53,406 bases of DNA from Bacteriovoracaceae bacterium (lineage in GTDB: Bacteria > Bdellovibrionota > Bacteriovoracia > Bacteriovoracales > Bacteriovoracaceae): assembly GCA_029865945.1 (NCBI GenBank), contig JARXAH010000090.1, positions 1 to 53,406 of the forward strand, written 5' to 3'. The first letter of the stretch is position 1. Each line of letters starts with the position of its first letter. The position numbers and the translations under genes are program-made. Positions 14,407-35,683 of this stretch are shown here, in pieces. The notes beneath the pieces were generated by a model. The model saw only the letters and a list, made by a program, of their open reading frames with translations. It was not told the origin of the DNA and searched no databases.

Positions 14407-14777
14407 TTTAAATCCTTGAATTCCCAATTTTTAAGTTCAAGAATTAAAATTCTAATCTGGGCCCATACATCTTGGAACTGAGTAACAACTTCTGACCATG
14501 GTGATGATTGCTTGCATAACTTATCAAGACTGCTTAACTTTTGTGCTAAAGAGTCGCATCCAAAAGTGAGAACTGCACCTTTTAATGCATGACTTGTTTT
14601 ACCAAGAACCATCATATCTTTGTTCTTATATGATTTTTCCCAAGGAGTGAGCAAGTCAGGCAAAGTTTCAGCAAATGACCTCAGGGCCTCATCTACAAGA
14701 ATTTCATCGCCACTAAATATTTCAAGCAACTTATCTTTACTAAAAAATTTAGGTTTTGTGTTTAAATCATCTGACAT
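14403..14777 (-). CDS. Stand-alone HPt phosphotransfer protein
   Basis: A 124-aa helical protein with the histidine phosphotransfer motif SHALKGA, placing the phospho-His at residue 63. HPt proteins shuttle phosphate between receivers. It overlaps the hybrid kinase gene upstream by 11 bases and the CheR-REC-CheB gene downstream through an ATGA junction, so the three are translationally coupled. The context suggests that it accepts phosphate from the kinase receiver (Asp568) and passes it to a receiver in one of the fusion proteins or to the lone receiver at 26108-26581. That routing is inference. No other domain is present and no signal peptide is seen. Confidence 0.88.
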   Translation of the reverse strand: MSDDLNTKPKFFSKDKLLEIFSGDEILVDEALRSFAETLPDLLTPWEKSYKNKDMMVLGKTSHALKGAVLTFGCDSLAQKLSSLDKLCKQSSPWSEVVTQFQDVWAQIRILILELKNWEFKDLK

Positions 14778-16740
14778 GAGATTTCAACTGGTTCATTTTT
14801 TTTGGATTTTCTGAAAATTCTAAATTTTCAGGATTTTCGATATCATATTTAGAAATGAGGGATTCAAGTTCCTTCATTTTTATGGGTTTTGGTAGAATTT
14901 CAGATACACCGCTGGCCATAAAATTTTGAACGTCCTCAGGATTAAATTCCTCCGCGGAGCATAGAATAATTTTTGATTTAACGCCAAGATCCAGTTTTTT
15001 TATAAATTCTATACCTGAAAGTTCTGGCATATTAAAATCAACAAATATCAATCCATAATTATTACTATCATCATTTTTTTGTAAGTGACTTAGTGCTAAA
15101 AGAGGAGATGAAAAAATATCAACTTCAAAATTCAATTTTTTTAAAAAATTTTTTAAAACAATTTGATTTATTTCGACATCTTCAACCACTATTGCTCGTC
15201 TCTTTAGTTTACTAGTGGCCATTGATGTCAAAAATATTCCCTCAACTGGATTTTCTAGTTTTACATTGATAGGCATGATTATTTCAAATCTACTACCTTT
15301 ATTAACCTCACTGGAAACAAGGAGTCTTCCCTTCATTAAATGAACTAAATCTTGACAGATACACAGTCCAAGTCCAGTTCCCAATTCATTTAGCTTGTGA
15401 TTATTTAACCTTCCTTGGTAGTAAGGGGTAAATAAACTAGAAACTGTCTCTTGATTCATTCCAATACCTGTATCTTCGACTATAATTTTTAAGCTATTTT
15501 CCTTACTTAAATCTTTCTCTAGTTCTATAGACATGGAAATTCCACCATGAGTAGTAAACTTCAAAGCATTGGATAGTAAGTTTAGAAGCACTTGTTTTAA
15601 TTTCACTTCATCAAATTTAAATTCTCTTGGAACATCCTTACTAATATTTAGTTTCCAACTAATGTTCTTCTTATTACAAAGAACTTCAAATAAATTAGAA
15701 ACTTCCTCAATAATTTTATGAAAATTGTTTATTTTTTCTTGCAATTTAAATTTCCCTGATTTAAGTTTTGCAAAATCAAGAATTTCATTAACGATACTTA
15801 AGAGTGAATTAGCGGAAGATAATATCATATCATAATAATCAGATACCTTTTTATCTTGATTCGAAAAATTCATTTTTAATACTTCTACAATACCAATAAT
15901 TCCATTTAACGGCGTTCTGAGTTCATGTCCTATTTTAGCAGTAAACTGTTCTTTTGCTTTTAAGGAGTGCTGTGCAATCAAAAAGTAATAAAATAATAAA
16001 GTCATGACTGAATAAATAAAAATTGAAGTAAACATTCCTAAATATAGATATAAATTTCGAATGGAGATGTATTCACTAGCAAAATAATCTACACCTAGCA
16101 CACCAATTTGTTTTTGGGCCTTATCATACAAGGGAACAAAAGCACTAACCCAAGTACCCCATTTATCAGTGTAGGGTTCCTCTGTAAATGACGGTATCCC
16201 TTGATACGCCTGATCAAGCTCTGGCAGCTTTTTTTCATAGACTTCTCCGATCAAAGTTCTAGACTCACTCTCACCTTCATAAATTCCGTTTTTATCATAG
16301 TCCGTCTCAGAATCAACGAGAAAACGATTATTTCCTTCGTCATCCAATTTCATTGTATAGATATCATTAATGAAATTATTATTTGAAAGCCATATTTTTT
16401 GGATTTCTATTAGTTCCAAATATTTTTTGTCATCATTTTTGGTTTTAAAATTTATGGATTCGTGTCCTAACATTTGAAAGGTTGCAGAAAAAGTAGGCGC
16501 ATAACCTAAAAGTTTTGCTTTTTCGTTTTTTTTTATAAGAGTCGTGATCTGAACTAATATGAATGATGAAACCAAAGAAAAACCAACAGTAAACAAAACG
16601 GATTGCCAAAATTCTTTACGATGATCTGTATATAAGTTGGTTCGTTTGGCAAAAAATAGAAAGACAATGAAGATGAACGCAAAATAAATTACATATCCTT
16701 GGGCCTCACTTAAAATTATCGATGTGGCCCAATGATTCAA
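14767..16740 (-). CDS. Membrane hybrid sensor histidine kinase
   Basis: The 657-aa protein has an N-terminal membrane segment (about residues 15-31), a second (47-67), a Cache-like extracytoplasmic sensor (70-230) containing TWVSAFVPLYD and a D-x-D-x-N-G loop at 147-152, and a third membrane segment (230-255). HisKA follows with His272 (GHELRTPLNG), then a HATPase domain with NLLSNALKF, DTGIGM and GTGLGL. A C-terminal receiver has Glu520/Asp521, Asp568 (VDFNMPE) and Lys618. It would autophosphorylate at His272 and pass phosphate to Asp568, then probably to the adjacent HPt. Start: TTG at 16740 forms a TTGA overlap with the upstream stop and has AAGGAAG in front; no ATG is better placed. A hybrid kinase between two adaptation-enzyme genes is unusual. 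Confidence 0.92.
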   Translation of the reverse strand: MNHWATSIILSEAQGYVIYFAFIFIVFLFFAKRTNLYTDHRKEFWQSVLFTVGFSLVSSFILVQITTLIKKNEKAKLLGYAPTFSATFQMLGHESINFKTKNDDKKYLELIEIQKIWLSNNNFINDIYTMKLDDEGNNRFLVDSETDYDKNGIYEGESESRTLIGEVYEKKLPELDQAYQGIPSFTEEPYTDKWGTWVSAFVPLYDKAQKQIGVLGVDYFASEYISIRNLYLYLGMFTSIFIYSVMTLLFYYFLIAQHSLKAKEQFTAKIGHELRTPLNGIIGIVEVLKMNFSNQDKKVSDYYDMILSSANSLLSIVNEILDFAKLKSGKFKLQEKINNFHKIIEEVSNLFEVLCNKKNISWKLNISKDVPREFKFDEVKLKQVLLNLLSNALKFTTHGGISMSIELEKDLSKENSLKIIVEDTGIGMNQETVSSLFTPYYQGRLNNHKLNELGTGLGLCICQDLVHLMKGRLLVSSEVNKGSRFEIIMPINVKLENPVEGIFLTSMATSKLKRRAIVVEDVEINQIVLKNFLKKLNFEVDIFSSPLLALSHLQKNDDSNNYGLIFVDFNMPELSGIEFIKKLDLGVKSKIILCSAEEFNPEDVQNFMASGVSEILPKPIKMKELESLISKYDIENPENLEFSENPKKMNQLKSHVR

Positions 16741-18767
16741 GAAGCTTCCTTTTGAATTTTAGGTGCAACAAATGTTAACATTTTATTTCTAAGTTCATTG
16801 ATTCCGCCTTGCAAACAAACGGCGCCTAACTCAACGGCGCGTTTGGGCATTCCATAAACAATAGAACTCATTTCATTTTGCGCCATTGTCAGGGATCGAC
16901 TGGTTTTAAAAAGTTCTAACATACCATTGGCACCATCTTCTCCCATCCCAGTCATCAATAATGCTAGTGTACGTTTTGAAACATTTTTTGCCACAGAAGA
17001 AAAAAGAATATCAATGCTTGGACGATGGCCATTTAATTTAGAGCGATTGAGTTCAGTGCTAGTTTCTAAAATTAATTTACCTTTTATTTCTTTGACAAGA
17101 ATATGATAGTCTCCAAGAGAAAAATAAATATGGCCTCGTTTTAATTCTTCATTTTTGGTTAAATCTTCTTTAAGATTTGTTCCTCCTAATTTCAAACTCG
17201 ATTGCTTAGCTAAATGCGTTGCGAACGCAGAAAGAAATTCAGTCGTAATATGTTGAACTACAATGATGGGAGGACAATTAAATGGCATATTCACTAATAA
17301 CTTGGCCAAGCAATCTGGTCCTCCCGTAGAAGAACCAATCACTATTAATTCAGGTGAAAAATCCTTGAGGCCAAATGGGGCCGATTTCACCATGACAAAA
17401 GAATTCTCATCATTAATCTTTTTTTCACAGACAGAAGCTTTAGACGTAGCCAAAGTCAACTTCGATTCTTCTTTCCGCTTTAGTTCATAATTTTGAGCGA
17501 GTGAAAAAAAAAGTTCCTTAATTTCTTCACTATGCGTATGCAATTTACTTTTCACTAAATAATCATGCGCTCCTGAAGCTCCTCCTCCGAATATTTTATT
17601 GGCCTCTTCTGGCGTAGAATCGCTAACTAAGACGACCGGTATTTTTAAATTCTTGGCCCTTTGCTGTTTTAACCATTCTATTCCGTTCATTCCGGGCAAA
17701 TTTATATCTAAGGTAATTAATTGGAATTGATCTTGCTCAATTATTTCCGATGCTTCTTCTGCGGATTCACATTCTCGAACATTGAAATTCATTGAGGAGA
17801 GAAGAGATTGCATTTTTTTTCGTATGACAAGTGAATCGTCAATGACGAGACATTTAAGTTTCGATACATTATTTGTTATTGTATTTTTTAAAATTTTTCT
17901 ATTGAGTGTTATTGATTCAACATTTATTTTTTTTTGAAAACAGCCTTTTCCTAAATTATCGAAACGATGTTGAGAACTCAATCCCAGAACATTTTCACTG
18001 TGGCCAAGAACCAATAGACCACCTGGTTTTAATCTGTGCGCAAGTGATTCAATAATGGCCTGTGCGTCGGTTGATTTGAAATAGATGAGTACATTTCGGC
18101 AGAAAACGATATCAAATGGCCCTGATTCATCATTATCTCGCAAGGCCATTAAATCCTGGGAATAAAACTGACATTTCCCTCTTATTTCCGATTCAAGTGT
18201 AAAATAATTTTGTGTTTTGCCCGAACCAACTCGCAAAAAAGGATGATATATTTTTTCAAATAAATCCATATCGGTACGCGGGTAAATGCCTTTTACGGCC
18301 ATTCGAACTGATGCTGGATCGATATCTGAACCAAAATACTTTATTTTCCAATTTTTTAGATTTTGCTTAATTTTTTGTTCCAAAAATAAAGCAACCGAAT
18401 AAACTTCCTCCCCTGTTGAACAGGCCGAAGACCAAATTTTAATGTCATGACCATTAAAGGATTTATCTTTTTTAGTACTTCGTTCTTGCTCCAAAAGGTA
18501 ATTATAAATAAATTCAAAGTGGGGTGATTCCCTAAACCATGAGGTCGTGTGAATAGTGAGTGAGCTTAATAATTCACAATATTCATTATTATCTGTTACT
18601 ACGTAAGCAAAATACTGCTGCAAATTACTAATATTAAGCTTCTGCATTCTTCTCTGTACATTACTGATGAGAACATCTTTTCGGCAAGCTCCTTCTTGGG
18701 AGGAACCAGTTAATTTTTCTGCTAGCGTAAAAATAAATTCAATTTCATCTTTTGTAAAATTTAGCAT
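16737..18767 (-). CDS. CheR-REC-CheB fusion protein B
   Basis: A 676-aa paralogue of fusion protein A with the same order. The CheR domain (about 5-282) has [10 protein letters not shown] at 115-124 and FCRNVLIYF. The receiver (304-420) has Asp310/Asp311 and phospho-acceptor Asp354 (TLDINLPG). The CheB esterase (about 472-670) has Ser480 (IGSSTGG), His506 (VQHI) and Asp611 (GMGEDGA). The linker between receiver and esterase is longer and more charged than in A. Start: the ATG at 18767 overlaps the last codons of the upstream MCP by seven bases. It is probably co-translated with that receptor and with the kinase downstream. No separate cheR or cheB gene occurs in this operon, so A and B likely do all adaptation chemistry here. 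Confidence 0.93.
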
Positions 18768-20860
18768 ACTTTTTTAAAACTCTCATCATTTGCATCAATA
18801 TTAGTTAATTTTTCATCACGAGATTGGGTATCGTTTATTGCAGATACGGAACTCATTACTGAACTTTTTTTAGCTAGGATTTCTCTAGCTAGAGACTCTA
18901 AACTATCTTCATTAACACTATGATCATTTACTTGTTTTTTTTGCAATGAAGGTGCAAGTTTTTGAATATTATTTGAATTCACTATTTTTTTAACTTCTGC
19001 AGTGCTGGACGAAGAAATATTACCTGTTAAATAATACGTAAAACTGTCAATCAAAGATAAGAATTCATTTGAATCATTTTTTAATTCATCAGTCATACGA
19101 AAACATTTTGTTGCGGCCATACTATTTTGTTGTGCCGCTAAGTCCATCTGTTTCATCGCAGAATTTGATTGTTGTATACCAATTTCTTGCTGTTGTGTGG
19201 CCTCTTGAATTGATTGAATCTGCTGATTGATGTCTTTTATTCGAGATGCAATATCAGCAAACGATGATTGGGCCAATTGATTGACTTGTGCTCCATCATC
19301 AATTCTTGAAACAATGGTATCGATTGTTTCTTTTACTCTAATTTGACAATCTTTTATGAGACTCTCAATTTCTAGAGCAGCTTCACCACTCATTTCAGCA
19401 AGATTACCGACTTCCTCAGCGACAACCGCAAATCCTCTTCCTTGTTGTCCTGCCCTCGCCGCTTCGATGGAAGCATTAAAAGATAAAAGTTGGCTTTTGA
19501 ATACAATGTCATTTATGAGATTTGTCTTTGCACTAATTTCTTCGATGGCCGTTGCAATACTTTGAATTTGATCACTGGCCCTTTGAATGGATTTCATTGT
19601 ATGTTCCATTCGAAGCATTACCTTAATTCCTTCGTCTGTTTTTTCTTGTGCGACGAGAGATGTCTCTTGAGTCAATTTAATATTTTGACCAGTTTGAGCA
19701 ATCATGGAACTCATTTCACTTAAGGCGCTCACTGTCTCTTGGATGGCCGCAGCTTGTTCCTGTCCTGAAGCCGCTAATTTTTGACTAGTCATTCTTAATT
19801 GATTTTCTGAATCAGAATTTTTACTTCTCACCAATGCAAACTTAGAAGTTAAATCGATGAGAAATTTCGAGACCCTTGTATTAACGAAAATTAAAAAAAG
19901 CAAAGAAATAACACTAATGACAAAAATACTAATTTTAAAAGCGAAGGAATCATTATTAATGGGGCCCAATACATCTTCTTTTGGAATCCTCAATGATATT
20001 GACCACTTTAATGAATCAATAAATTTATCGCCTTTTAATATACTATTAATGATAAAATCATTATTTTCACTATTTGAATCTCTATTTTTTTCTTTTTTAA
20101 AAAGAGAGTTTACGACATTTTTCTTTGGACTCCCATCAAGCATTTGTTTTACGAAGATTTCTTTATTTTCACTTAGTACTAATATTTCTCCCAATTTATG
20201 TCCTTTCGAAATCAACTGCTGAGCTCCATTAAAAATTTCATGTTCGATCCATTGTAAATTGGCCCGATTTGTTATTACGCCAATTACTGTGCCTTCAGAA
20301 TTTTTTACTAGCGCGCTAAAGGAATTACTAGCGCGTTGATCTCCATACATGGCAGAAGTGATATCATCCATACTTGGATCTTCTACTAAAGTGCCAACCA
20401 TTCCCTTTGTTGCGTCATCAGTGGTGATCCCTTTCATAGATTTTTTAAACCAATTCTCGTTGACAAAATTTTTACTTTTCAAGACATCAATATTTATTTT
20501 TTTCCCTTTACTATCTACGGAATTAGATGCAATGAGCTTACCATTAGTATCAACAAATAAAATGGCATCATAAATTCCGTATAAGGTAACATAGGAATTC
20601 AAAGTTTTTTCCATTCCCTCTTTATTAGAGGATTGAAAAACTTCATTTAAGCCAAACGCTTGCACATCTCCATAACGCTCGTAGAATTGAGCACTAATGG
20701 CATCAACCAGATTTTCTATATGAAGTTGAAAGGAATCAGTTGTTGATTTTTTTAGCTTCTTTTCAAATCCAGAAAATTGATGCCAATTGACTAATGAGAG
20801 TACAGACAAGCAGATAAAGCTTGCGAAAATCAGTCGAGATTTAAGTGGAAATGATTTCAT
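18761..20860 (-). CDS. Methyl-accepting chemotaxis protein with large Cache-type sensor
   Basis: A 699-aa transmembrane receptor. TM1 is at about residues 9-27, a large periplasmic double-Cache-like domain spans 30-305 ([13 protein letters not shown] at 102-114 is a typical Cache strand pattern), and TM2 is at 308-328. The cytoplasmic signalling domain has the tip [20 protein letters not shown] near 450-469, followed by [19 protein letters not shown]. No recognisable HAMP domain separates TM2 from the coiled coil. The last 90 residues form a Ser/Lys-rich tail without the NWETF-type tether. It would cluster with CheA and CheW and be modified by the CheR/CheB fusions. The ATG at 20860 has AAGG upstream, and the gene starts 17 bp after cheW ends. 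Confidence 0.93.
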
Positions 20861-20877
20861 AATTTACCTTCTCATTC

Positions 20878-21363
20878 TTATGCTATTTTTAATTTTTCAT
20901 CGCAAAGAGATTTAAATAAATCGACAATCGTAATGAGTGAATCTTTATTTTTGGCCACTCCCAATAAATATTCGTGTCCGATTTTTGACTGAACTGGGGG
21001 ATGGTGATCCACATCTTCTTGTTTTAAGTGAACAACAGAATCGACATAATCTACAATGGCCGCGATCGCCCCTTTATCAGTATCACAAAGAAGCATGGCC
21101 GTTTTTTTATCGAACTTTTCTTGGCACCCGAATTTTGATCGCAAATCAACTACTCCGACTATCGCCCCTCTTACATTAATGACACCCACAAAATAATTCA
21201 CCATATTGGGCATGGGCTTTGGCTGTTGGTATTCAAGAACTTCTCGAACTGTGAGTAGAGGTGCGCCATACTGAACGCCGCCAACATAAAAGACTAAAAA
21301 TTTATATTGATTAATATCTCGAATTTTCTTTTCACTCACTTCCATGCTACTTAAATTATTCAT
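20878..21363 (-). CDS. cheW: Chemotaxis adaptor CheW
   Basis: A 161-aa scaffold coupling receptors to CheA. It is a single CheW domain: the FLVFYVGGVQYGAPLLTVRE region at about residues 22-41, then the conserved GVINVRGAIVGVVDLR block (60-75) that contacts receptor tips and CheA P5, and the C-terminal LITIVDLFKSL strand-helix. It has a short N-terminal extension of about 20 residues. The ATG at 21363 forms an ATGA overlap with the stop of cheA, so the two are translationally coupled. This is the only CheW in the window and probably serves both MCPs and, perhaps, the PAS receptor-like proteins. Confidence 0.95.
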   Translation of the reverse strand: MNNLSSMEVSEKKIRDINQYKFLVFYVGGVQYGAPLLTVREVLEYQQPKPMPNMVNYFVGVINVRGAIVGVVDLRSKFGCQEKFDKKTAMLLCDTDKGAIAAIVDYVDSVVHLKQEDVDHHPPVQSKIGHEYLLGVAKNKDSLITIVDLFKSLCDEKLKIA

Positions 21364-23153
21364 GCTGATAACTCCTTATCTTCGAATTTAGCGACGTAAT
21401 TTTTAAGAATGGTATGCATATCAATAATGAGCCCTGGCTCTCCATTTCCTAAAATTGTTCCGCCCATGATTCCTACAAGGCCACTAATATTTTGGTTGAG
21501 TGGGCGAACAACAATTTGCTGTTGTCCCAGAACTGCGTCCACAAGAAAAGCAACTTTACCTTGCTGGCGCTTGGCTATTAAAAAAATTCCACTTTCATTA
21601 TTCTTTTCATTATTCTTAGGGTGATTGGATTCAGAAGAATGCTTCAATATTGAAGCAAGTTTTTGGATTGGTATAACTTGGTCTCTAAGATAGATCATAC
21701 TTTTATTATTATCAAATTCGCAATCCGCAAGATTAATCACTTCTTCAATCGAATCGACAGGAACTACGTAAAGTTGATCCGTCAATTTGACTATGAGGCC
21801 ATCAATAATACTGACACTTGTTGGAAGGGAAATATTAAAATTAGATCCACTATTTTCCACACTTTCAATATGAATTTTTCCTCTCAATTCTTCAATGGCC
21901 TTAGATACGACGTCCATCCCTACACCTCGACCAGAAACATCAGTAATTTTATCAGCGGTGGAAAATCCAGGAAGTAATATCAATTTTAAAACCTGCTCAT
22001 CTGACATATTATTGGCATGAGAAATTAATTTTTTTTCGACAGCTTTCGAAATTATTTTTGATCTATTTAATCCTTTCCCATCATCGCTTACTGTTATCAC
22101 GACACCAGAAGTATCTTGCTTAGCAGAAATTTTTATTGTCCCGTTGGCATCTTTTCCTTTCTGTAATCTTTCCTCATTTTTTTCGATCCCATGATCAATT
22201 GCATTTCTTACAATGTGAGTAAGAGGATCTACCATTTTGTCTAAAACTGTTTTATCTAGTTCTACGTCGCTACCTTCTAAAATGACTTTAACTGTTTTAT
22301 TTAAATTTTGTGAGAGATCTAAAATATTTCGCTCTAACCTTTGAAACAAGGACTGAATAGGCTGCATGCGCAGACCTAAAGCACGGTCATATAGTTCTTT
22401 TGTTAACTTTTGCCCAACTTGTAGAGAATTTAAGAAAATTTTATTTTTAATTTTAAGATCACTGTTTAAATGCCACATAATGGATTGATGAATAGATAAC
22501 TCACCTATACAAGCGGCCAGTTCATCTAGTTTATTTGCTGGAACTCTAATACTTTCTTGATTTGCTGTTTTTGTATTTTTTAGTTTTACAGGTTCGTCAG
22601 TTTTTACACTAGTAGCTACTATATCGCTAGAAATTGGTGGTTCACTTATTTTTTTTATCTCCACGACCTTAGAAGATTCGGTGGATTCAGGAGTTTCAGA
22701 AAATAAATCTTGTGAAGGAGGAGCACTCATATCTGAATCTAGCACCAACTCAGGTTGTTTATCTTCATTTTCAGTTTTCATAGCACTTTGATATTCAGCA
22801 AGGAAAGCACTGGTATCATCGGTATATTCAGTTCCTTCCTTGGTCGCAGTAATCCATTCCATTAAAATTTTTTGTGCCTTTAATAGTAAGGAAATGCATT
22901 TAATGGAAGTAGGTACTTTTTCATCTCTTAAAAGTGTGATTCCATCTTCCACTTTGTGTACAAAATTACCAAACTCAACTAGACCAATAGCGCGAGAGCC
23001 ACCTTTTAAATTATGAGCAATTCGAAATATTTCTTGAAGGAGCTCAATTTTAACTTTTTTAGATAATTCTAAGGCGACGGATTCCCACCTCAGAAGTAAA
23101 TCAGTGGCCTCATCACAAAAAATAACGCGCATTTCATCTTCAAATTCACCCAT
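21360..23153 (-). CDS. cheA: Chemotaxis histidine kinase CheA
   Basis: A 597-aa class II histidine kinase. The HPt/P1 domain (about residues 1-110) has the phospho-His at 47 (AHNLKGGSRA). A long Ser/Glu/Pro-rich linker (125-200) follows, with no recognisable P2 (CheY/CheB docking) domain. The P3 dimerisation helices are at about 203-270. The P4 ATPase has the N-box HIVRNAIDHGIE (313-324), the VSDDGKG loop and SGRGVGMDVV. The P5 CheW-like domain covers about 446-590. It is complete, without an attached receiver. Absence of P2 suggests slower or less selective transfer to its receivers, here the lone REC (26108-26581) and the receivers of the two CheR-REC-CheB fusions. An AAGGAT ribosome binding site precedes the ATG. 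Confidence 0.95.
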   Translation of the reverse strand: MGEFEDEMRVIFCDEATDLLLRWESVALELSKKVKIELLQEIFRIAHNLKGGSRAIGLVEFGNFVHKVEDGITLLRDEKVPTSIKCISLLLKAQKILMEWITATKEGTEYTDDTSAFLAEYQSAMKTENEDKQPELVLDSDMSAPPSQDLFSETPESTESSKVVEIKKISEPPISSDIVATSVKTDEPVKLKNTKTANQESIRVPANKLDELAACIGELSIHQSIMWHLNSDLKIKNKIFLNSLQVGQKLTKELYDRALGLRMQPIQSLFQRLERNILDLSQNLNKTVKVILEGSDVELDKTVLDKMVDPLTHIVRNAIDHGIEKNEERLQKGKDANGTIKISAKQDTSGVVITVSDDGKGLNRSKIISKAVEKKLISHANNMSDEQVLKLILLPGFSTADKITDVSGRGVGMDVVSKAIEELRGKIHIESVENSGSNFNISLPTSVSIIDGLIVKLTDQLYVVPVDSIEEVINLADCEFDNNKSMIYLRDQVIPIQKLASILKHSSESNHPKNNEKNNESGIFLIAKRQQGKVAFLVDAVLGQQQIVVRPLNQNISGLVGIMGGTILGNGEPGLIIDMHTILKNYVAKFEDKELSA

Positions 23154-23189: not shown

Positions 23190-24590
23190 TCAGCTCGCTT
23201 GTTCTTCCATTTTGTTACTTATTTCTATAGCTGAATCTTTAAAATGAATCATGGATTCATTAATTAAATAATTTATATTTCTTATCACCGGAAGCATTTC
23301 AGAGACCAATTGATAGGTTGTTTCTACGAAACTTTCGATCCCTTCCATGGATTCACGGTATTCATCCACAAATTTTTCCATTTCATTTATGAAAGGACCA
23401 AAAACCGAAATAAGAGAATCGGTACGAGAACCTTCAATTTTTCCACCAGTTTTAATTAAGTCAATTCTAGTTAAATGCTGTATTAACGATTTGGATAAAC
23501 GATTTGTGTTATCAACTAATTTCATAAATGAAGCTTGCTTTTCTTCAGTCTTAGTAAAAAATTTTAAAGTGGCATCAAAAAGATAATTATTTTTACTAAA
23601 AAGTTCCCCCATGCTGCTGTAAGTTTCATTTTTTACTGAGGAATGAAGCATTTCTACTTGAATAAAAGCATAATAAATATCAGTGTAGTTGGTTTGCAGT
23701 TCCATTTTCATGGAATCGTAGGATTTTTTAAATTCTAAAAATGTTTTTAAAAACTTATGGGAAGTTGCTTGAAAAGTATTGGCAACCACGTATAGTGCTG
23801 ACCCTTCTCGTGAAAGCTTATTGGCCGTAATACACATGTTGACTGAAAGAACTTCGATCCGGTCACTAATTCTCTCAAAGCTATCAACATTTGATTTACT
23901 TAAAAATTCTTCAAATTTGCTAGCTTCCGTATTCTTTATAATTTGCTTAATTGACCTAAATGAGCGCTCTAAGTTCATAATGATTAGATTTTTATTTTGC
24001 TCAAAGATTTCATTATTACTTTTTGGTCTTGAAACTGACGGAGACTGTCCTCGTATTTTTATTCTTAAATTTAATTCATCTTTTAGTACAGCGACCATAA
24101 ATTGATCATAACTATGAATGCCCAAGGACTTTAATTCTTGCATCAAAAATTCACTAGCTTTTTCTACACCTTTATCTTTCTCTACTTCAAGAAGCTTAAC
24201 ATAGATCTGTTCTGCAATAGATTTCAATTTTGATTGAGGTTTAATTCTAATGGAAAAATAGCCACCTTCCTCAATAAACACACAGGCAAGTACCCAGTAG
24301 AATTTTCCATTTTTAGATTGATTTTTTACGTAAGCTACAGTCACTTGACGATTTTTGATTCGATTCCATAATAATTTGAATACACATTTAGGCATATCTG
24401 GATGCCTTATAATATTGTGAGGTGTACCGATCAGCTCATCTAATGAAAATTCAGAAATTCGTGTAAAGACACTATTTCCCTCTAGAATAATTCCTTTTAA
24501 ATCAGTTCGAGAGACAAAAATTTCATCATCAAGAAACGCGGCCTCTTCCTGTTGAAAAATTGGATCACTATTAATTTTTTTTGGTACCAT
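23190..24590 (-). CDS. PAS (Aer-like) protein with divergent MCP-like signalling helix, copy 1
   Basis: A 466-aa soluble protein with no membrane segment. Residues about 22-120 form a PAS domain of the Aer type, with GTPHNIIRHPDMPK (55-68), VKNQSKNGKFYWV (88-100) and the final strand YFSIRIKPQSK. The rest is almost entirely helical. At 251-270 it contains NMCITANKLSREGSALYVVA. This matches the MCP hairpin tip spacing N-x2-I-x-A-x6-G-x4-VVA exactly, although most of the canonical EAARAGE residues are changed. The position in the operon, just upstream of cheA and after an MCP, supports a receptor-like or CheA/CheW-regulating role. It resembles the gene at 26645-27877 in both domains. Redox or flavin binding is possible by analogy with Aer, but is inference. 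An AGAGGT ribosome binding site precedes the ATG. Confidence 0.82.
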   Translation of the reverse strand: MVPKKINSDPIFQQEEAAFLDDEIFVSRTDLKGIILEGNSVFTRISEFSLDELIGTPHNIIRHPDMPKCVFKLLWNRIKNRQVTVAYVKNQSKNGKFYWVLACVFIEEGGYFSIRIKPQSKLKSIAEQIYVKLLEVEKDKGVEKASEFLMQELKSLGIHSYDQFMVAVLKDELNLRIKIRGQSPSVSRPKSNNEIFEQNKNLIIMNLERSFRSIKQIIKNTEASKFEEFLSKSNVDSFERISDRIEVLSVNMCITANKLSREGSALYVVANTFQATSHKFLKTFLEFKKSYDSMKMELQTNYTDIYYAFIQVEMLHSSVKNETYSSMGELFSKNNYLFDATLKFFTKTEEKQASFMKLVDNTNRLSKSLIQHLTRIDLIKTGGKIEGSRTDSLISVFGPFINEMEKFVDEYRESMEGIESFVETTYQLVSEMLPVIRNINYLINESMIHFKDSAIEISNKMEEQAS

Positions 24591-24598
24591 ATTAACCT

Positions 24599-26095
24599 CT
24601 AGGCCACTTTAGTGTTATTCTTATGGCCATTTAATAACAAGCTAATTGATCCTGTTGCTTCTTTAATTTTGTCGTTGGTATCAATTAAACGATGAATATT
24701 TTTTAATGAAGTCTGGGCCGATTGACTGTTATTCTTACTTGCCGAATCAATTTGTTCTATAGCAGCATTCGATTGTAAAATACTTTCAGTCTCTTCATCG
24801 CATTTAAGTGAAAGTTCGGAAAAATCATTCTCCACATCAACGACCTTATTAAACATCTCTTTAATTTGATCAGATACATGCGAGGTAATATTTCGGGAGT
24901 CATCAATTTTCTTAACGACAGAACCACCCATTGAGGAAACTTTTTCGTTACTTTCTTTTAATAATTGCTGTATGGAATTGGCCGCATTTCCTGAAGTAAG
25001 TGCGAGCTTACTAATTTCTTCTGCAACCACTGAAAAACCGCGCCCGTGCTCACCGGCCCTTGCGGCCTCGATAGATGCATTAAAGGAAAGTAACTGAGTT
25101 TTAAAAACGATGTCATTGATAATACTAGTTTTAGTATCTATTGTTTTAATCGTACCAATTAATTCTTCAAAATCTTCTAAGATTTTTTGCATCCCATTCA
25201 TACATTCTATCAGTTCATCAATTTTTAATAGTCCTGCTTGTCCACTCGTCACAATCACTTTTGTTTTCTTAAGAGCTCCTTGAATTTGTGTACTTGTCTC
25301 TTCAATGAGTTCTTTCGTTTTATGACTAAGTTTGGAACAAGTGGCCACAGCTTGATTTTGTTCAACACTTGCGGCCGCAATATTTTGAGCACTCAAATGC
25401 GATTGCTGACAAACTTCTTCAGATGATTTTACAGCATCATTTAATTTGGCCGAGACTCGGGTAAATAATTTATTTGTTGATGTACTAAGAACAAGTGAAA
25501 CAATGATGGCTATTAAAGAAATGGCCAATAGCGACCAAAAAATTAGTTGTAAATTCCTTTCCCCGCTATCTGAAGATTCAAAAGCTTCTTTCTCAATGGC
25601 GGCCCCCATTTTTTCCATTTGCTCTTCTACGTCTTCAAAAGTTTTTTTGAATTCAACTTTAAGCTCTTCTTTGCTTTTTGCATTATCCATTTCTGCTAAC
25701 AATGACTTCGAGGACTTAATATATCCTTCAAGAGAAGGCTTTACTTTTTCAATTAATAATTTGGTGTTATCACTCAAAGTTAATGACTCTAACTCAGCAA
25801 TATACTTCTTAAAGTCGTTACTTTTTTCTTCTAATTCAATTTTCAATTCATTGACACGATCTGCATTTTTAATTTCGTTTTGATACAAGGCCTCCATGAC
25901 AACCCCTCGCATCCCATCATGCATCATATCTGCGAGTGTTTGATTTTTTAGGGCCGGTAATTTATTTTTACTAACTTCGCTTAGATACTTCATCAATGTT
26001 TCTGAGTTCTTATAAGAAAAAGTTCCAAACGAAATAATAAGTAGTACCATCAAAAGTCCAAAAAAGTAAAAACGTTGTCTGAGAGTAAAATTCAT
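24599..26095 (-). CDS. Methyl-accepting chemotaxis protein with four-helix-bundle-type sensor
   Basis: A 498-aa receptor. TM1 is at about residues 9-27, a helical periplasmic domain spans 28-182 (size and composition of a 4HB_MCP ligand-binding domain, very rich in Lys/Glu), and TM2 is at 183-204. The cytoplasmic coiled coil carries the hairpin tip [20 protein letters not shown] (327-346), then [19 protein letters not shown]. As in the larger MCP of this operon, no HAMP domain is evident after TM2, and the C-terminus lacks a CheR-tether pentapeptide. The two MCPs share the same unusual tip (F-K-x-Q-L-L-S-F-N-A-S), so they probably form mixed arrays with the same CheA/CheW. AAGGA precedes the ATG; the gene starts 12 bp after the lone receiver gene. 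Confidence 0.93.
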
Positions 26096-26107
26096 TTTTA
26101 GTCCTTG

Positions 26108-26581
26108 CTATGATGCTTTTTTTTCTAAACTAATTAATAATCGATTTAACTTATCATCAATTTGCTCCATTTCCTTTTCAGGAAATCCGTAGCTTTTTTT
26201 TAGTTTTTCATAGAATAAACATTGCTTTGCAGTATAAATGAGAATTTCAGAAATGTAGGGCTTGTCGACAATACTATAGGCCATATAATTAAGAGTAGAG
26301 AGGGCCTTTTTATCACTCGCATTACCGGTAAGTAAAATGAAAGGGGTAAAATCTTTCGTCTCTCTAAGTATTTTAATAAAATCTAAGCCGTTTTTTTCAG
26401 GCATTTGAAAATCACTAACAATTAAATCTATTTTTTCTTTTTTCAAAATTTCGAGTGCTTGGTCTACAGAATTTGTTTTTGTCACTGTTTGAAAATGATT
26501 TTTTAATTCCAAAAATATCAAATCTAACAAATCATCGTTATCATCTGTAACCAGAATATGGAAATTAAAAATATTATTCAC
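26108..26581 (-). CDS. Single-domain response regulator (CheY-like) with helical tail
   Basis: A 157-aa protein. Residues about 7-125 form a receiver domain with the acidic pair Asp13/Asp14, phospho-acceptor Asp57 (IVSDFQMPEKNG), a TG switch region (ILLTGN) and the conserved Lys of VDKPY. The last 30 residues are a charged helix without a DNA-binding motif. It is the only free receiver in the operon and therefore the best candidate for the CheA output, analogous to CheY, although it could also be a phosphate sink. Start: GTG at 26581 with AGGAA just upstream; no better in-frame ATG is available. It follows a 63-bp gap that contains a perfect 28-bp palindrome. Confidence 0.9.
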   Translation of the reverse strand: MNNIFNFHILVTDDNDDLLDLIFLELKNHFQTVTKTNSVDQALEILKKEKIDLIVSDFQMPEKNGLDFIKILRETKDFTPFILLTGNASDKKALSTLNYMAYSIVDKPYISEILIYTAKQCLFYEKLKKSYGFPEKEMEQIDDKLNRLLISLEKKAS

Positions 26582-26595
26582 GAGATTCCTATCGG

Positions 26596-26623
26596 AAAAT
26601 TTCTCATTATAATGAGAAATTTT
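26596..26623. repeat. Perfect 28-bp AT-rich palindrome between two che-operon genes
   Basis: The two halves, 26596-26609 and 26610-26623, are exact reverse complements and centred on AATTATAATT-like sequence (CATTATAATG). In the transcript (minus strand) it would form a 12-13-bp hairpin ending in TTTT. It is the longest non-coding gap inside the operon and lies directly before the lone receiver gene. It may be a partial terminator, an RNA-processing site or a protein-binding site. Confidence 0.7.
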
Positions 26624-26644
26624 TCTCTCATTCCATTTACAAAA

Positions 26645-27877
26645 TTAATCAAGAATTAAATTGCAACTTCCTTTTTTCTGAGTTAGATGCTCGTGAATCT
26701 CTACAACTCTCTTGCGAATAATTTCTGCAACTCCCGAGGAATCTTTAATTGAGGAATCTAAGTATTGTTTAAATTTGAAAAGATCTGTGACTAAGTGGTC
26801 TAATTGTTCGCGGTTGCGGTTCAATCTTGCTACTTCTATTTTTCCCGTTAATCGCACGATATCAAGACCCGTGGCCACCATTCGCAATTGTTCACAAGTT
26901 GAAATAAATTGGTCAAACTCTATTTTAATCTTACATAAAGTATCTAAGGAGATGTTTATGCCATCTAAAGAAACTTGCTCTAGTATTTTCATTTCACTTT
27001 CTACATTTAGTATTCCATCAGTTATTTTTTCATTTTTAAAAAAATTGATAACTTCACTTTCAAGAACTGCTGCTGCCAAAACATATTGGCATTCTGAGAC
27101 CGATTTTTGAACTAACTGACATGTCTCTTCAAATCGCTTAAACTCCGTTTGTATTTCATTAATCAACACCGTATACCGACTTGCCACAACAGCAAGAGGT
27201 GCCCCTTCTTCATCTAATTTATCGGCCTGAATTGCTAAGTTAAGGGGTAATAAAATACTACCAATAAAATTTTTTTCTAATTCTTGAGAATTCTTAAGTA
27301 AATCGTCTGATTTACTCAAGAGTTCATTGAGTCTCACAAGAATAGGAATTTCTGGACGTGATAATTTTTTTTGCCTATTTTTTATTTCGGACAAAAGAGC
27401 TGTAGTCATAAATGTTTTATAATCAGGAAATCCTAATGAATGAAGAACTTTCAGCAATTCTTGACATGACTGGGCCGGCGCTAATTTTTGATTTTTTTCT
27501 ATTGCCAAAAGTTTTTGATACTCACCCTTGATAACTTCTAGAATTTCACTTCCTGGTTTAATTCGAATGGATAAATATCCTTGTTTAATGGGAATGGCCA
27601 AGGCAAAAACCCAATAATAGCATCCGTCTTTGGATTGGTTTTTAACAAATGCCCCCACAGGTTCACCTGCTTTAAGCATTTCCCATAACAAATAAAAAAC
27701 GGCCTTAGGCATATCTTGGTGCCTAACCACATTATGGGGGCGATCAATAAGTTCATTCCAATCATAACCACTGATCCGTTTAAAAACCGAATTGCCAGAT
27801 AAGATGACTCCTCTCTTATCTGTACGAGAAAAAAAAATTTCATCAAACCCAAATAGCGTTTCATTTTTGATATTCAT
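26645..27877 (-). CDS. PAS (Aer-like) protein with divergent MCP-like signalling helix, copy 2
   Basis: A 410-aa soluble protein and the first gene of the chemosensory operon. The PAS domain at about residues 12-112 has RPHNVVRHQDMPKAVF (46-61), FVKNQSKDGCYYWVF (78-91) and YLSIRIKPGSE, closely matching the protein at 23190-24590. The remainder is helical. Residues 213-232 read NLAIQADKLDEEGAPLAVVA and keep the MCP tip spacing N-x2-I-x-A-x6-G-x4-VVA, with Q and D in place of conserved E and A. A second motif, RLTGKIEVARLNRN, lies near 345-358. No membrane segment, HAMP or methylation consensus is apparent. The role (cytoplasmic redox receptor or array modulator) is inference. The 78 bp upstream of its ATG should hold the operon promoter, but I could not define it. 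Confidence 0.82.
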   Translation of the reverse strand: MNIKNETLFGFDEIFFSRTDKRGVILSGNSVFKRISGYDWNELIDRPHNVVRHQDMPKAVFYLLWEMLKAGEPVGAFVKNQSKDGCYYWVFALAIPIKQGYLSIRIKPGSEILEVIKGEYQKLLAIEKNQKLAPAQSCQELLKVLHSLGFPDYKTFMTTALLSEIKNRQKKLSRPEIPILVRLNELLSKSDDLLKNSQELEKNFIGSILLPLNLAIQADKLDEEGAPLAVVASRYTVLINEIQTEFKRFEETCQLVQKSVSECQYVLAAAVLESEVINFFKNEKITDGILNVESEMKILEQVSLDGINISLDTLCKIKIEFDQFISTCEQLRMVATGLDIVRLTGKIEVARLNRNREQLDHLVTDLFKFKQYLDSSIKDSSGVAEIIRKRVVEIHEHLTQKKGSCNLILD

Positions 27878-33209: not shown

Positions 33210-33855
33210 TATTTTCCTTTAACTTGCGAAAGAGTGAACGCATGAGGGCCTGATCTTTAATTCCTGGTGAAACCTCGATTCCGCTCGAAAGATCAACCCC
33301 ACTTACATACTTATAATTTTTTATTTGAGTGAAATTTTCGTTATTAATTCCACCCGCCAAATAAATGAATGCATCTTTTTTTATTCTCCTATTGGAATAA
33401 GCAGAAATGGGATCAATATACTCAAATATTTTTTTTCTTAATTGCGGCCTGAGATGACTTTGAGCACAATCAAAAATAATTCCTTCGCAATCTAAATACA
33501 AATCAGGATTTAGGATGAAACCCACTTCGTTAATGGGTATTGTTTTGAAGATACTTAAACTGGGATAGATATTTTTTAAAATATTTATTGAATAGGAACT
33601 TTCACTACCATGCAATTGGACAACATCTAATTGAAGTTCTTCCACATGTTTTTGAATGATAGAAAGTCTTTCGTTTTGAAAAACACCTACTATTTTTGAT
33701 CTTTTATTCACCTCTTGAAGTAGCGTTTTTGCCTCTCTTAATTCAAGTCTTCTAAGACTTGGCGCAAATATTAATCCAACTTCGCTCGCCCCTAACTCGA
33801 TGGCCAATTCTAAATCAACTTTTTGCGTGACGCCGCAAATTTTAATTCGCAACAT
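33199..33855 (-). CDS. trpF: Phosphoribosylanthranilate isomerase
   Basis: A 218-aa TIM-barrel that converts N-(5-phosphoribosyl)anthranilate to CdRP, the third step of tryptophan synthesis. The N-terminal IKICGVT motif carries catalytic Cys7. [15 protein letters not shown] (the likely general-acid Asp), [10 protein letters not shown] and [15 protein letters not shown] are the family blocks. TrpF is a separate protein here, not fused to TrpC as in enteric bacteria. The gene overlaps trpDC by 14 bases upstream and trpB by 11 bases downstream. Confidence 0.95.
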
Positions 33856-35683
33856 ATATCTCTTCTAACATATGTTTTAGAGCTAAGGCGGGAGAAGAAT
33901 TTTTCATTAAGCTTGATCCTATTAAAAATCCTTTAAATCCATATTGAAGTAATTCCTCCATTTCCTGCCTTGTTTCAATACCACTTTCACTAATTAAAAT
34001 AACATCTGATGAAACTAATGAGGCCAGTGTTTTAGAGGTAGATAAAGATATTTCTAATGTATGCAAATTGCGATTATTAATACCTATGATTTTTGCACCC
34101 ACTTTTAAGGCGATTTCTAATTCTTCTTGATTGTGAACTTCTACCAGGACAGAAAGTGAAAGCCTTTGGGCGATTTCATAAAACTCACCCGTTTTTTCTT
34201 CCCCAAGCATGGCCACAATAAGTAAGATGGCATCCGCACCAAACAAATAGGCCTCGAAAATTTGATACTCATCTATAATGAAATCTTTTTGGAGAATCAC
34301 GATGGACTCATTTTTCATTCTCAATTTAAGTAAATCATTGATATCTCCTGAAAAATAATTGGGTTCGGTCAAAAGTGAAACCGCTACCGCACCTTGGGTC
34401 TGATACTCTTCTGCCAAATGAATGGGATCAACACTCACATTAATATCGCCTAAGCTAGGACTGCTTTTTTTTACTTCTGCGATGACGGAATAATGATGAT
34501 GAAAAATATTTTCAAAATCATGAGGAATGCGTTTTCCTAAATTTACTTTTTCTTTCAAATCGCTCAATGGAAGCAGTCGTTTGCGATCCGCTATTCTCAT
34601 TTTAGTTAATTTTTGCATTTCCAGTAAAAAGGAAGAATTAATCGCATAAATTTTCTTTCGTCCCTTGCCATTTATCTGCTGCTTTCTTAGCGCTTGAAGG
34701 GCCGCACCAGAATCAATGCTATGCAAAGACAATTTAATTCCCTCTTCTAAATTACTCGCCACTCCTGACACCATGAGAGCGGCGGCCGCATTAATGGCCG
34801 CTATGTCGCGTCCACTCCCTGGCAGTCCATCCAAAATTTTCTCAATCATTAAGGCATTATAGATTGCATCCCCCCCCATTAAATCACTGATCATGACATC
34901 ATTTTTAAAATAGAGTTTTGGGTTAATGACTACCTCTTCACTAACTTCAAAAACTTCACTCTTGAAACGAATACCTTTAGTCTTAAGTTCTAATCCAATC
35001 TCATCATTACCGTCATCTCCATGAACAACCATTCCTTCCTGACTTCCAAGAATTTTCAGAGCATGGGATAGGGGCCTTAACAACGCTGGCGAATATACTC
35101 CCACCAACTGTTTTTTAACTCTTGCTGGATTTAATAGGGGGCCAAGGGCATTAAGAAAGGTACGAACGCCAAGATTTTTTCTCATCAAAGCTAATTTTGC
35201 AAAGGCCGGATGAAAGGAAGGAGCAAATAAAAACGCCATTCCGTTATCAGATAAATTATCTCTCGCACTCACTGAATCATGATTAATAGTGACACCTAAG
35301 GCCTCTAGTACATCAAAGCTACCGCACTTACTTGAAACGGATCGATTGCCATGTTTGGCGACAACTACTCCGCATCCAGCGAGAATAAAGGAAACGCAAG
35401 TGGAAATATTATACATACCTAGGCCGTCTCCCCCTGTTCCACACACATCGATCGCATGAAATTCATCTATCTCAAAAAGTTGTGAACGTTTCAATATTGA
35501 TTGAGCAAATCCAGCAAGTTCATTTCCTGTCGGCAACCTATATTCAAAGGATGCCAATAAATATCCCATTTGCTCTGGGTTAAACTTTCCCTCAACCATC
35601 GAATCCATCATGGATTCTGATTCGAAAACGGAAAGTTCCTCATGCGTACCTATTTTTTTTTGCAATTTAATAAACTCATTCAT
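33842..35683 (-). CDS. trpDC: Bifunctional TrpD-TrpC: anthranilate phosphoribosyltransferase and indole-3-glycerol-phosphate synthase
   Basis: A single 613-aa frame encodes two enzymes. Residues 1-338 are TrpD, with VCGTGGDGLGMYNIST (PRPP-binding, 80-95), KHGNRSVSSKCGS (110-122) and HGDDGNDEIG. After a short basic linker (338-348), residues 349-613 are TrpC, with IAEVKKSSPS (401-410), LQKDFIIDEYQIFEA, GINNRNLHT, ISESGI and FLIGSSLM. All recognisable catalytic blocks are present in both halves. It would carry out the second and fourth steps of tryptophan synthesis on either side of TrpF. This gene order suggests loss of a stop between adjacent trpD and trpC. The start ATG overlaps the end of trpG by eight bases. 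Confidence 0.95.
   Translation of the reverse strand: MNEFIKLQKKIGTHEELSVFESESMMDSMVEGKFNPEQMGYLLASFEYRLPTGNELAGFAQSILKRSQLFEIDEFHAIDVCGTGGDGLGMYNISTCVSFILAGCGVVVAKHGNRSVSSKCGSFDVLEALGVTINHDSVSARDNLSDNGMAFLFAPSFHPAFAKLALMRKNLGVRTFLNALGPLLNPARVKKQLVGVYSPALLRPLSHALKILGSQEGMVVHGDDGNDEIGLELKTKGIRFKSEVFEVSEEVVINPKLYFKNDVMISDLMGGDAIYNALMIEKILDGLPGSGRDIAAINAAAALMVSGVASNLEEGIKLSLHSIDSGAALQALRKQQINGKGRKKIYAINSSFLLEMQKLTKMRIADRKRLLPLSDLKEKVNLGKRIPHDFENIFHHHYSVIAEVKKSSPSLGDINVSVDPIHLAEEYQTQGAVAVSLLTEPNYFSGDINDLLKLRMKNESIVILQKDFIIDEYQIFEAYLFGADAILLIVAMLGEEKTGEFYEIAQRLSLSVLVEVHNQEELEIALKVGAKIIGINNRNLHTLEISLSTSKTLASLVSSDVILISESGIETRQEMEELLQYGFKGFLIGSSLMKNSSPALALKHMLEEIYVAN

Follow-up and report, generated by a model that had tools for sequence, protein, structure and literature searches.

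Two Aer-type PAS proteins beside cheA with a degenerate, apparently tandem MCP-tip-type bundle: members of a candidate family of soluble receptors

Here we describe two proteins, copy 1 and copy 2, encoded on the minus strand of contig JARXAH010000090.1 (GCA_029865945.1) of a Bacteriovoracaceae bacterium; the window is the whole stretch of 53,406 nucleotides that was analysed, and all positions refer to it. Each combines a PAS domain of the type found in the receptor Aer with a C-terminal half that appears to be related to the tip of the methyl-accepting chemotaxis proteins (MCPs). Sequence comparison and structural models suggest that both are soluble receptors for flavin adenine dinucleotide (FAD) or redox state, which would signal via chemosensory complexes through a bundle of the MCP-tip type; we put the probability of this reading at a little under 60%. 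As judged from their sequences, they belong to a large, overlooked family that spans Bdellovibrionota and Alphaproteobacteria. An inspection of the letters alone (the sequence-only reading) had proposed a soluble, unannotated, receptor-like class, and our analysis supports this, here with a member adjoining cheA. The coordinates and strand it had given for the two proteins were confirmed by a check of the open reading frames (ORFs):

23190..24590, minus strand: copy 1, 466 residues; PAS domain, linker and tandem hairpin domain, long type (ORF; Pfam PAS_3, E 4.8e-7)
26645..27877, minus strand: copy 2, 410 residues; PAS domain, linker and tandem hairpin domain, short type (ORF; Pfam PAS_3, E 4.7e-9)

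The observation from which the proposal had started is a motif in the C-terminal half. Both copies had been said to fit the MCP tip spacing N-x2-I-x-A-x6-G-x4-VVA without a gap and to share the same changes (a lysine for the MCP arginine, and LS or LD for AG), and both statements hold for the following segments:

23781..23840, minus strand: copy 1 motif 1, residues 251-270, NMCITANKLSREGSALYVVA
27182..27241, minus strand: copy 2 motif 1, residues 213-232, NLAIQADKLDEEGAPLAVVA

The canonical tip, N..IEAAR.GE.G.GF.VVA, is matched by neither copy: the spacing and the N, I, A, G and VVA are kept, while the E, R, AG and GF are altered. The strict motif has 33 matches among 518,828 residues in 1,429 non-overlapping ORFs, with 0.004 expected from composition. 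Of these matches, 27 lie in MCPs, one of these being a second, truncated version of the window MCP, and six in family members, with none in other proteins; a protein was counted as an MCP if it matched in the PF00015 search or had the canonical NxxIEAAR tip. Note that the scanned loci were mostly fetched as MCPs or relatives, so that 33 is not a genome-wide rate and the control is the zero elsewhere. A chance match as the origin of the motif was ruled out by the difference between 0.004 and 33 and by the lack of matches outside MCPs and the family.

The motif is also conserved in homologues, a point on which the proposal had been staked beforehand. Among 101 distinct members, Asn 213 is present in 100, Ala 218 in 88, Gly 225 in 85 and an Arg or Lys at 220 in 68. 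At the position of the MCP arginine we count R in 52, K in 16, Q in 17 and H in 11 members, and the Leu of LS/LD is the commonest residue at its own position (68 of 101). Tsr residue numbers served as position labels. On sequence comparison, the region of motif 1 is a homologous but degenerate MCP tip.

Standard profiles do not find this region in the window. The C-terminal halves of both copies gave no MCP match in Pfam and NCBIfam up to E 1, and neither copy reaches the curated cut-off of MCPsignal (PF00015). The claim that such proteins are missed by the standard MCP signature thus stands for both window copies, but not for every relative: one of the ten that were scanned, L209 from a che cluster, passes PF00015 with 36.5 bits against a cut-off of 34.6, and its motif 1 reads LSLNASVES. 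A further relative, L043, remains 0.2 below the cut-off (34.4 bits), four lie between E 2e-6 and 3e-5, L126 has E 0.03 and three have no match; seven of the ten had been chosen for a good MCP-profile score. In L003, motif 1 is LSLNASIESSHTG and motif 2, the counterpart in the second hairpin described below, is GIIESARIGNKGKNF. By their sequences, L209 and L003 are intermediates between the family and MCPs.

Profile comparisons point the same way. From 111 rows we used 107 C-terminal halves, leaving out L046, L056, L050 and L055 for a mismatch to the PAS/linker pattern; six exact duplicates, each a protein present in two collections, reduce them to 101 distinct sequences. When the hidden Markov model (HMM) of these halves was run against the 1,429 ORFs and 1,429 reversed sequences, MCPs took the first 36 non-family ranks with E 1e-7 to 0.009, and the best reversed sequence had E 0.012. 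The tip pattern flagged 35 of these 36 MCPs, and the tip of the one at rank 36 (L157) is visible in the motif scan. The profile-profile comparison that had been suggested for the C-terminal half links its first hairpin (hairpin 1) to the MCP tip: in hhalign, hairpin 1 and a set of 39 MCPs align with a probability of 92.8% (E 3.8e-7) and with the tip in register, and both reversed controls give 1%. For the Bdellovibrionota subset the values are 97.4% and E 1.3e-11 over 105 columns, and for the whole bundle (CT2) against MCPs 90%, with 9-11% when reversed. The 39 MCPs were selected by a tip pattern that requires N and E, so these two residues are 39/39 by design; R was not required. Plain coiled-coil bias was ruled out by the reversed and heptad-block-shuffled controls.

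Next, we asked how the C-terminal half is folded. The predicted elements are:

27023..27352, minus strand: copy 2 hairpin 1, residues 176-285; MCP-tip homologue, helix break at 221
26654..27022, minus strand: copy 2 hairpin 2, residues 286-408; probably arose as a repeat of hairpin 1 and diverged
26789..26848, minus strand: copy 2 motif 2, residues 344-363, TGKIEVARLNRNREQLDHLV; in the same register as motif 1
23625..24017, minus strand: copy 1 hairpin 1, residues 192-322; helix break at 259 (AlphaFold2)
23196..23612, minus strand: copy 1 hairpin 2, residues 327-465; helix break at 389-390 (AlphaFold2), GKIEG from residue 383

The AlphaFold2 model of copy 2, built with 81 sequences, has a predicted local distance difference test (pLDDT) of 94.6 and a predicted template modelling score (pTM) of 0.91, with helices at 178-207, 210-220, 222-281, 292-350 and 356-401. 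The model of copy 1 (pLDDT 88.3, pTM 0.84) follows the same plan, with breaks at 259 (that is, 251 + 8) and at 389-390. In copy 2 the break at 221 lies eight residues past N213, the place of the MCP hairpin turn, and the loop 351-355 lies at the equivalent place of the second repeat. The arms measure 43 and 60 residues and then 59 and 46, which is compatible with a pair of hairpins; these lengths and the register suggest that the chain turns at the 221 break rather than at the 208-209 kink. In both copies the models thus place a helix break where a helical hairpin had been expected, within a helical bundle. The degenerate MCP hairpin in exact register was borne out, but a single hairpin was not: the C-terminal half appears to be tandem, with a second, diverged hairpin at 286-408 of copy 2.

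The best VIA-align match of copy 2 residues 175-403 is a designed single-chain four-helix bundle (8d9o; Z 19.0, 190 aligned residues, 2.1 A), and the 50 matches listed contain generic four-helix bundles and no MCP. Since the MCP tip bundle is built from two chains, the missing MCP says little. Foldseek gave PAS/LOV-containing chains among the 50 matches listed for copy 2. For copy 1 nearly all matches are to the PAS domain; the helical part has one, the alpha-pore toxin component 6h2d (Z 13.4, 171 aligned, 3.4 A). Kinship to 6h2d, ClyA, TorS or mitofusin was rejected, as helical packing is all they have in common with the bundle (identity 8-12%).

Hairpin 2 probably shares descent with hairpin 1. 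Aligned with hhalign, residues 176-285 and 286-408 give a probability of 83.7% (E 8e-6) over 81 ungapped columns, with 1-2% when reversed, and the alignment pairs I216 with I347 and Q217 with E348. With reduced columns the score is 32.9, compared with 18.2 +/- 3.2 (maximum 28.0, n=60) for the heptad-block-shuffled null. The descent of hairpin 2 runs over hairpin 1 as a bridge, and is therefore likely but not proven. Its own motif, GKIExAR, is well kept among the 101 distinct members: Glu 348 in 95, Gly 345 in 69 and Arg 351 in 65. In the canonical MCP tip a single hairpin carries Asn, Glu and Arg (Arg in 39 of the 39 MCPs used). As far as the alignments tell, in the family hairpin 1 holds the Asn, Ala, Gly and V-V/I-A type positions, and hairpin 2 the Glu and often the Arg.

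At the other end of the proteins, the sequence-only reading had recognised an Aer-type PAS domain:

27548..27844, minus strand: copy 2 PAS domain, residues 12-110 (phmmer to Aer PAS 8dik, E 1.4e-23)
24231..24527, minus strand: copy 1 PAS domain, residues 22-120 (Pfam; fold match to Aer PAS 8dik)
27353..27547, minus strand: copy 2 conserved helical linker, residues 111-175 (alignment and AlphaFold2; no Pfam match)

Aer is indeed the closest PAS by sequence and by fold. In VIA-align, 8dik is matched with Z 16.0 by copy 2 and Z 18.4 by copy 1, each with a root mean square deviation of 1.3 over 122 aligned residues. The FAD contacts of E. coli Aer are given as H53, R57, W70, N85 and R115 in PMC9668731. 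These positions are occupied in copy 2 by H48, R52, W65, N80 and R105; N80 and R105 are invariant in all 81 aligned rows, and the other three are kept in at least 90%. The linker has one invariant Y and one invariant F. Its signature GF.SY..FM..AL..EL..R is family-specific and could be useful in annotation.

From these parts we would picture the following mechanism. The PAS domain, to judge from its conserved contact residues, would bind FAD and sense redox state. The conserved helical linker would pass the change on and move the four-helix bundle, which the two tandem hairpins of the MCP-tip type would form within one chain, probably packed alongside each other so that the two turns lie at the same end. 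Such a bundle would resemble the tip of an MCP dimer, being covalently paired and asymmetric. Its end with the two unlike tips may contact MCP trimers, CheW or CheA, so that the redox state would alter CheA activity.

The division of the tip residues allows a bolder idea. Mowery et al. (PMC4692393) note that, of the two subunits of an MCP in an array, one is turned towards the trimer axis and its partner towards CheA and CheW. The two hairpins split the MCP contact residues (Asn, Gly and VVA versus Glu and Arg), and it is conceivable that one face would serve the trimer axis and the other CheA/CheW, giving an orientation-locked redox receptor. A fused, unequal pair of hairpins could fix one orientation permanently, which is our boldest reading; we hold it as a tentative possibility that more probably fails than holds. 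If it were true, the inside and outside roles of MCP subunits could be read from sequence.

Alternatively, as had been considered at the outset, the bundle may act as a decoy or brake that docks on MCP trimers or CheW and cannot activate CheA, and that would lower array activity or cap array edges in one redox state of the PAS domain. Some of the MCP tip residues are missing from each hairpin, both window copies have losses in common and the genes are placed among real MCPs, all of which would suit such a role. The Lys for Arg and the Leu are frequent family-wide and therefore no argument for it by themselves. We consider a decoy improbable: jointly, the hairpins keep a complementary set that is strongly conserved (N213 in 100 and E348 in 95 of 101), which looks more like a working interface than decay.

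In Bdellovibrionota, members were found in at least 53 of 368 genomes with a profile of seven C-terminal halves (E 3e-24 or better); this is a lower bound, as the six best candidates per genome were scored and weaker hits left uncounted, and it includes partial genes. A scan of the GTDB species genomes for the linker pattern gave 234 relatives. The best 80 of these were fetched; going by their titles, seven belong to Bdellovibrionota and most to Alphaproteobacteria. One set comprises 79 of the 80 (L095 was omitted), and set A6 consists of 55 of the 79 and both window copies. In the order of Rhodobacter capsulatus, where ten candidates per genome were scored, 60 of 244 drawn genomes carry the family; the weakest hit has E 9e-30, and a gap without hits separates it from the limit of 1e-10. 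One member is RCAP_RS18135 of R. capsulatus SB 1003, and the R. capsulatus genome G400, to which locus L107 belongs, has the family at four places. A restriction of the family to the source genome is thereby ruled out. That genome (96% complete), searched with copy 2, holds two members only, plus one PAS-only match. Three full-length members on plasmids are annotated, two as 'PAS domain-containing protein' and one as 'aer: aerotaxis receptor'. Our literature search, the coverage of which is thin on subscription journals, found no description of the family, which may nevertheless be in print; CheO, as far as the available part of PMC9665402 describes it, was judged unrelated. Two further observations concern gene and domain order. 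Five genomes of the R. capsulatus order (G454, G566, G574, G638 and G517) carry family genes in runs of two or three, which suggests local amplification. Six other loci (L007-L012, e.g. L007:1489-2757) encode proteins of 404-422 residues in the reverse order, that is, with a canonical MCP tip close to the N-terminus and an Aer-like PAS motif close to the C-terminus.

Carriers of the family very often have CheA. In Bdellovibrionota, CheA (PF02895) is found in 51 of 53 carriers, compared with 191 of 315 other genomes (Fisher p 3e-8), and among the 332 FliG-positive genomes in 51 of 53 versus 190 of 279 (p 3e-6); the two carriers without CheA (G141 and G148) both have CheW-domain matches. In the R. 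capsulatus order the numbers are 59 of 60 carriers and 76 of 184 others (p 2e-17), and among the 80 named loci CheA is present in 47 of the 50 genomes tested. A che cluster with cheA surrounds the family gene in 8 of 40 Bdellovibrionota loci drawn from the listed members, with neighbours named by BLAST to the window genes (L173, L174, L175, L184, L188, L195, L200 and L209); in L174, L184, L188 and L195 it directly adjoins cheA, as copy 1 does. Furthermore, cheA lies within 5 kb of the gene in at least 8 of the 60 carriers of the R. capsulatus order (distances were taken for 12), and in L211, L214 and L215 the family gene stands between che genes and an MCP.

On a tree of 125 members (of 133 rows, after a length and duplicate filter), made with a quick method and showing long branches, the 16 che-linked rows need seven changes, at least six of which are forced by well-supported branches; che linkage has therefore been gained or lost repeatedly. 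Copy 1 falls into a group of five che-linked rows (support 99), and copy 2 groups with five rows that are not labelled che-linked, including L038, the locus of which is too short to judge. As the copies fall into separate groups of this tree, a recent duplication within the operon was rejected.

Several observations weigh against a receptor that acts through an MCP-tip-type bundle, or against parts of this reading. An HMM of MCPs recognised neither window copy (less than 3 bits); of 133 rows, which represent 127 distinct proteins, 24 outscored every reversed row, and most members scored like reversed sequences. The non-Bdellovibrionota rows of hairpin 1 reach 54% against MCPs. The comparison of the two hairpins gives 67% in Bdellovibrionota, 35% in the rest and 28-35% across the subsets. 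Hairpin 2 against MCPs directly gives 18% in hhalign, which is not significant; with reduced columns it gives 26% and a score of 26.1, within the null of 21.6 +/- 3.9 (maximum 31.1), and by subset 49% in Bdellovibrionota and 2% in the rest. In the window copies, the MCP tip set is incomplete in both hairpins. The packing was judged from helix limits and from matches to unrelated bundles; the 6h2d score is near the level usual for helical bundles, and the bundle of copy 1 was scarcely probed by the fold search. As to the co-occurrence with CheA, the statistics ignore kinship, motility or genome size could drive part of it, and the non-carriers may include undetected carriers, given the six or ten candidates scored per genome. 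In 32 of the 40 Bdellovibrionota loci there is no cheA nearby, and the 80 named loci, some of which span only 3-6 kb, show one clear cheA (L136), the match in L077 being to the ATPase part only. Most members are thus orphans, and one carrier of the R. capsulatus order, G566, has neither a CheA nor a CheW match.

The orphans and G566 would suit a function independent of the chemosensory system, in which the MCP-derived bundle is reused for oligomerisation or for another output (e.g. cyclic di-GMP) and the co-occurrence with CheA merely reflects motile lifestyles. In 7 of 74 named loci, the family gene has an EAL-like neighbour (cyclic di-GMP phosphodiesterase-like, by reading), which fits this too. 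On the other hand, the family recurs in che clusters of two phyla and the co-occurrence persists within FliG-positive genomes, so we regard such an explanation as very doubtful. The EAL-like genes form the largest cluster of neighbours in the 74 of 80 named loci that were clustered; in L112 the gene is at position -1.

In the window, the presence of real MCPs on the flanks and of cheA next to copy 1 was verified, the neighbours being identified by Pfam. Read along the minus strand, the order is copy 2, REC, MCP, copy 1, cheA, cheW, MCP, cheR-REC-cheB and hybrid kinase:

26108..26581, minus strand: receiver-domain (REC) protein between copy 2 and the MCP (Pfam)
24599..26095, minus strand: MCP between both copies, 4HB_MCP_1 and MCPsignal (Pfam)
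21360..23153, minus strand: cheA, with Hpt, H-kinase_dim, HATPase and CheW (Pfam)
20878..21363, minus strand: cheW (Pfam)
18761..20860, minus strand: second MCP (Pfam)
16737..18767, minus strand: CheR-REC-CheB fusion (Pfam)
14767..16740, minus strand: hybrid histidine kinase (Pfam)

Copies 1 and 2 are 33% identical over 390 aligned positions (44% in the PAS domain and linker, 20% in the remainder). The REC protein starts with GTG and has a tail about 45 residues long. The fusion joins CheR, a receiver and CheB in a single protein of 676 residues, and cheRB-like neighbours of 611-750 residues (BLAST match only) occur in seven related che loci. Outside this cluster, an apparent TrpD-TrpC fusion among adjacent trp genes was read by eye at 33842-35683 on the minus strand.

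The MCP between both copies brings to mind the bipartite CetA/CetB receptors of Campylobacter jejuni and the Magnetospirillum pair CetA2/CetB2 (PMC13401364 and PMC12442639), in which the FAD-PAS protein CetB acts with the MCP CetA. The family proteins might likewise make no contact with CheA or CheW, bind the neighbouring MCP (24599-26095 here) along the bundle and relay the FAD signal as CetB does to CetA. Like CetB, they would be separate FAD-PAS proteins (FAD being predicted here) that work with chemosensory proteins, and an MCP adjoins the gene in the window, L184, L211, L214 and L215. However, most loci have no MCP adjoining the gene, and CetB is described in PMC13401364 as containing an isolated PAS domain, whereas both copies have, after the PAS domain, a long helical bundle with MCP-tip homology. 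We therefore think a CetB-like partner unlikely.

A receptor that signals through CheA by its own bundle, our preferred reading, has several known relatives in design. E. coli Aer and the PAS-FAD receptors of the AerC type have the closest PAS domain, the FAD-contact residues of which are kept in the family. Unlike them, the family has its own linker and tandem hairpins, and the window copies have no HAMP or MCPsignal match in Pfam (for membrane anchors, no dedicated tool was run). A second comparison is with single-chain MCP-like proteins, the primary papers on which are said to be those of Berleman and Bauer from 2005 and of Wuichet and Zhulin from 2010. Natural single-chain versions of MCP signalling domains are already in print, as cited in Mowery et al. 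2015 (PMC4692393). By that description they are soluble and have two MCP signalling halves per chain, a design that the family may share; the tips of the family differ in being degenerate, unlike each other and placed after an Aer-type PAS domain, and the window copies have no PF00015 match.

What appears to be new, as far as the literature searched shows, is the joining of an Aer-type PAS domain to a tandem tip that is both degenerate and asymmetric, together with the occurrence of such proteins in two phyla, where an MCP profile mostly overlooks them. Surveys that count receptors by their MCP signalling domain miss most members and, if signalling through CheA is true, the energy-taxis repertoires of many Bdellovibrionota and Alphaproteobacteria would be undercounted. 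The asymmetric tip would also be a natural experiment that separates the residues for trimer contact from those for CheA/CheW, the distinction behind the single-chain Tsr receptors of PMC4692393. The same source reports that such engineered Tsr~Tsr receptors can control CheA. The family would share with them a covalent dimer, here as a predicted pair of hairpins; but Tsr~Tsr, as described there, is engineered from two full, identical membrane receptors, whereas the family is natural, soluble, minimal and asymmetric.

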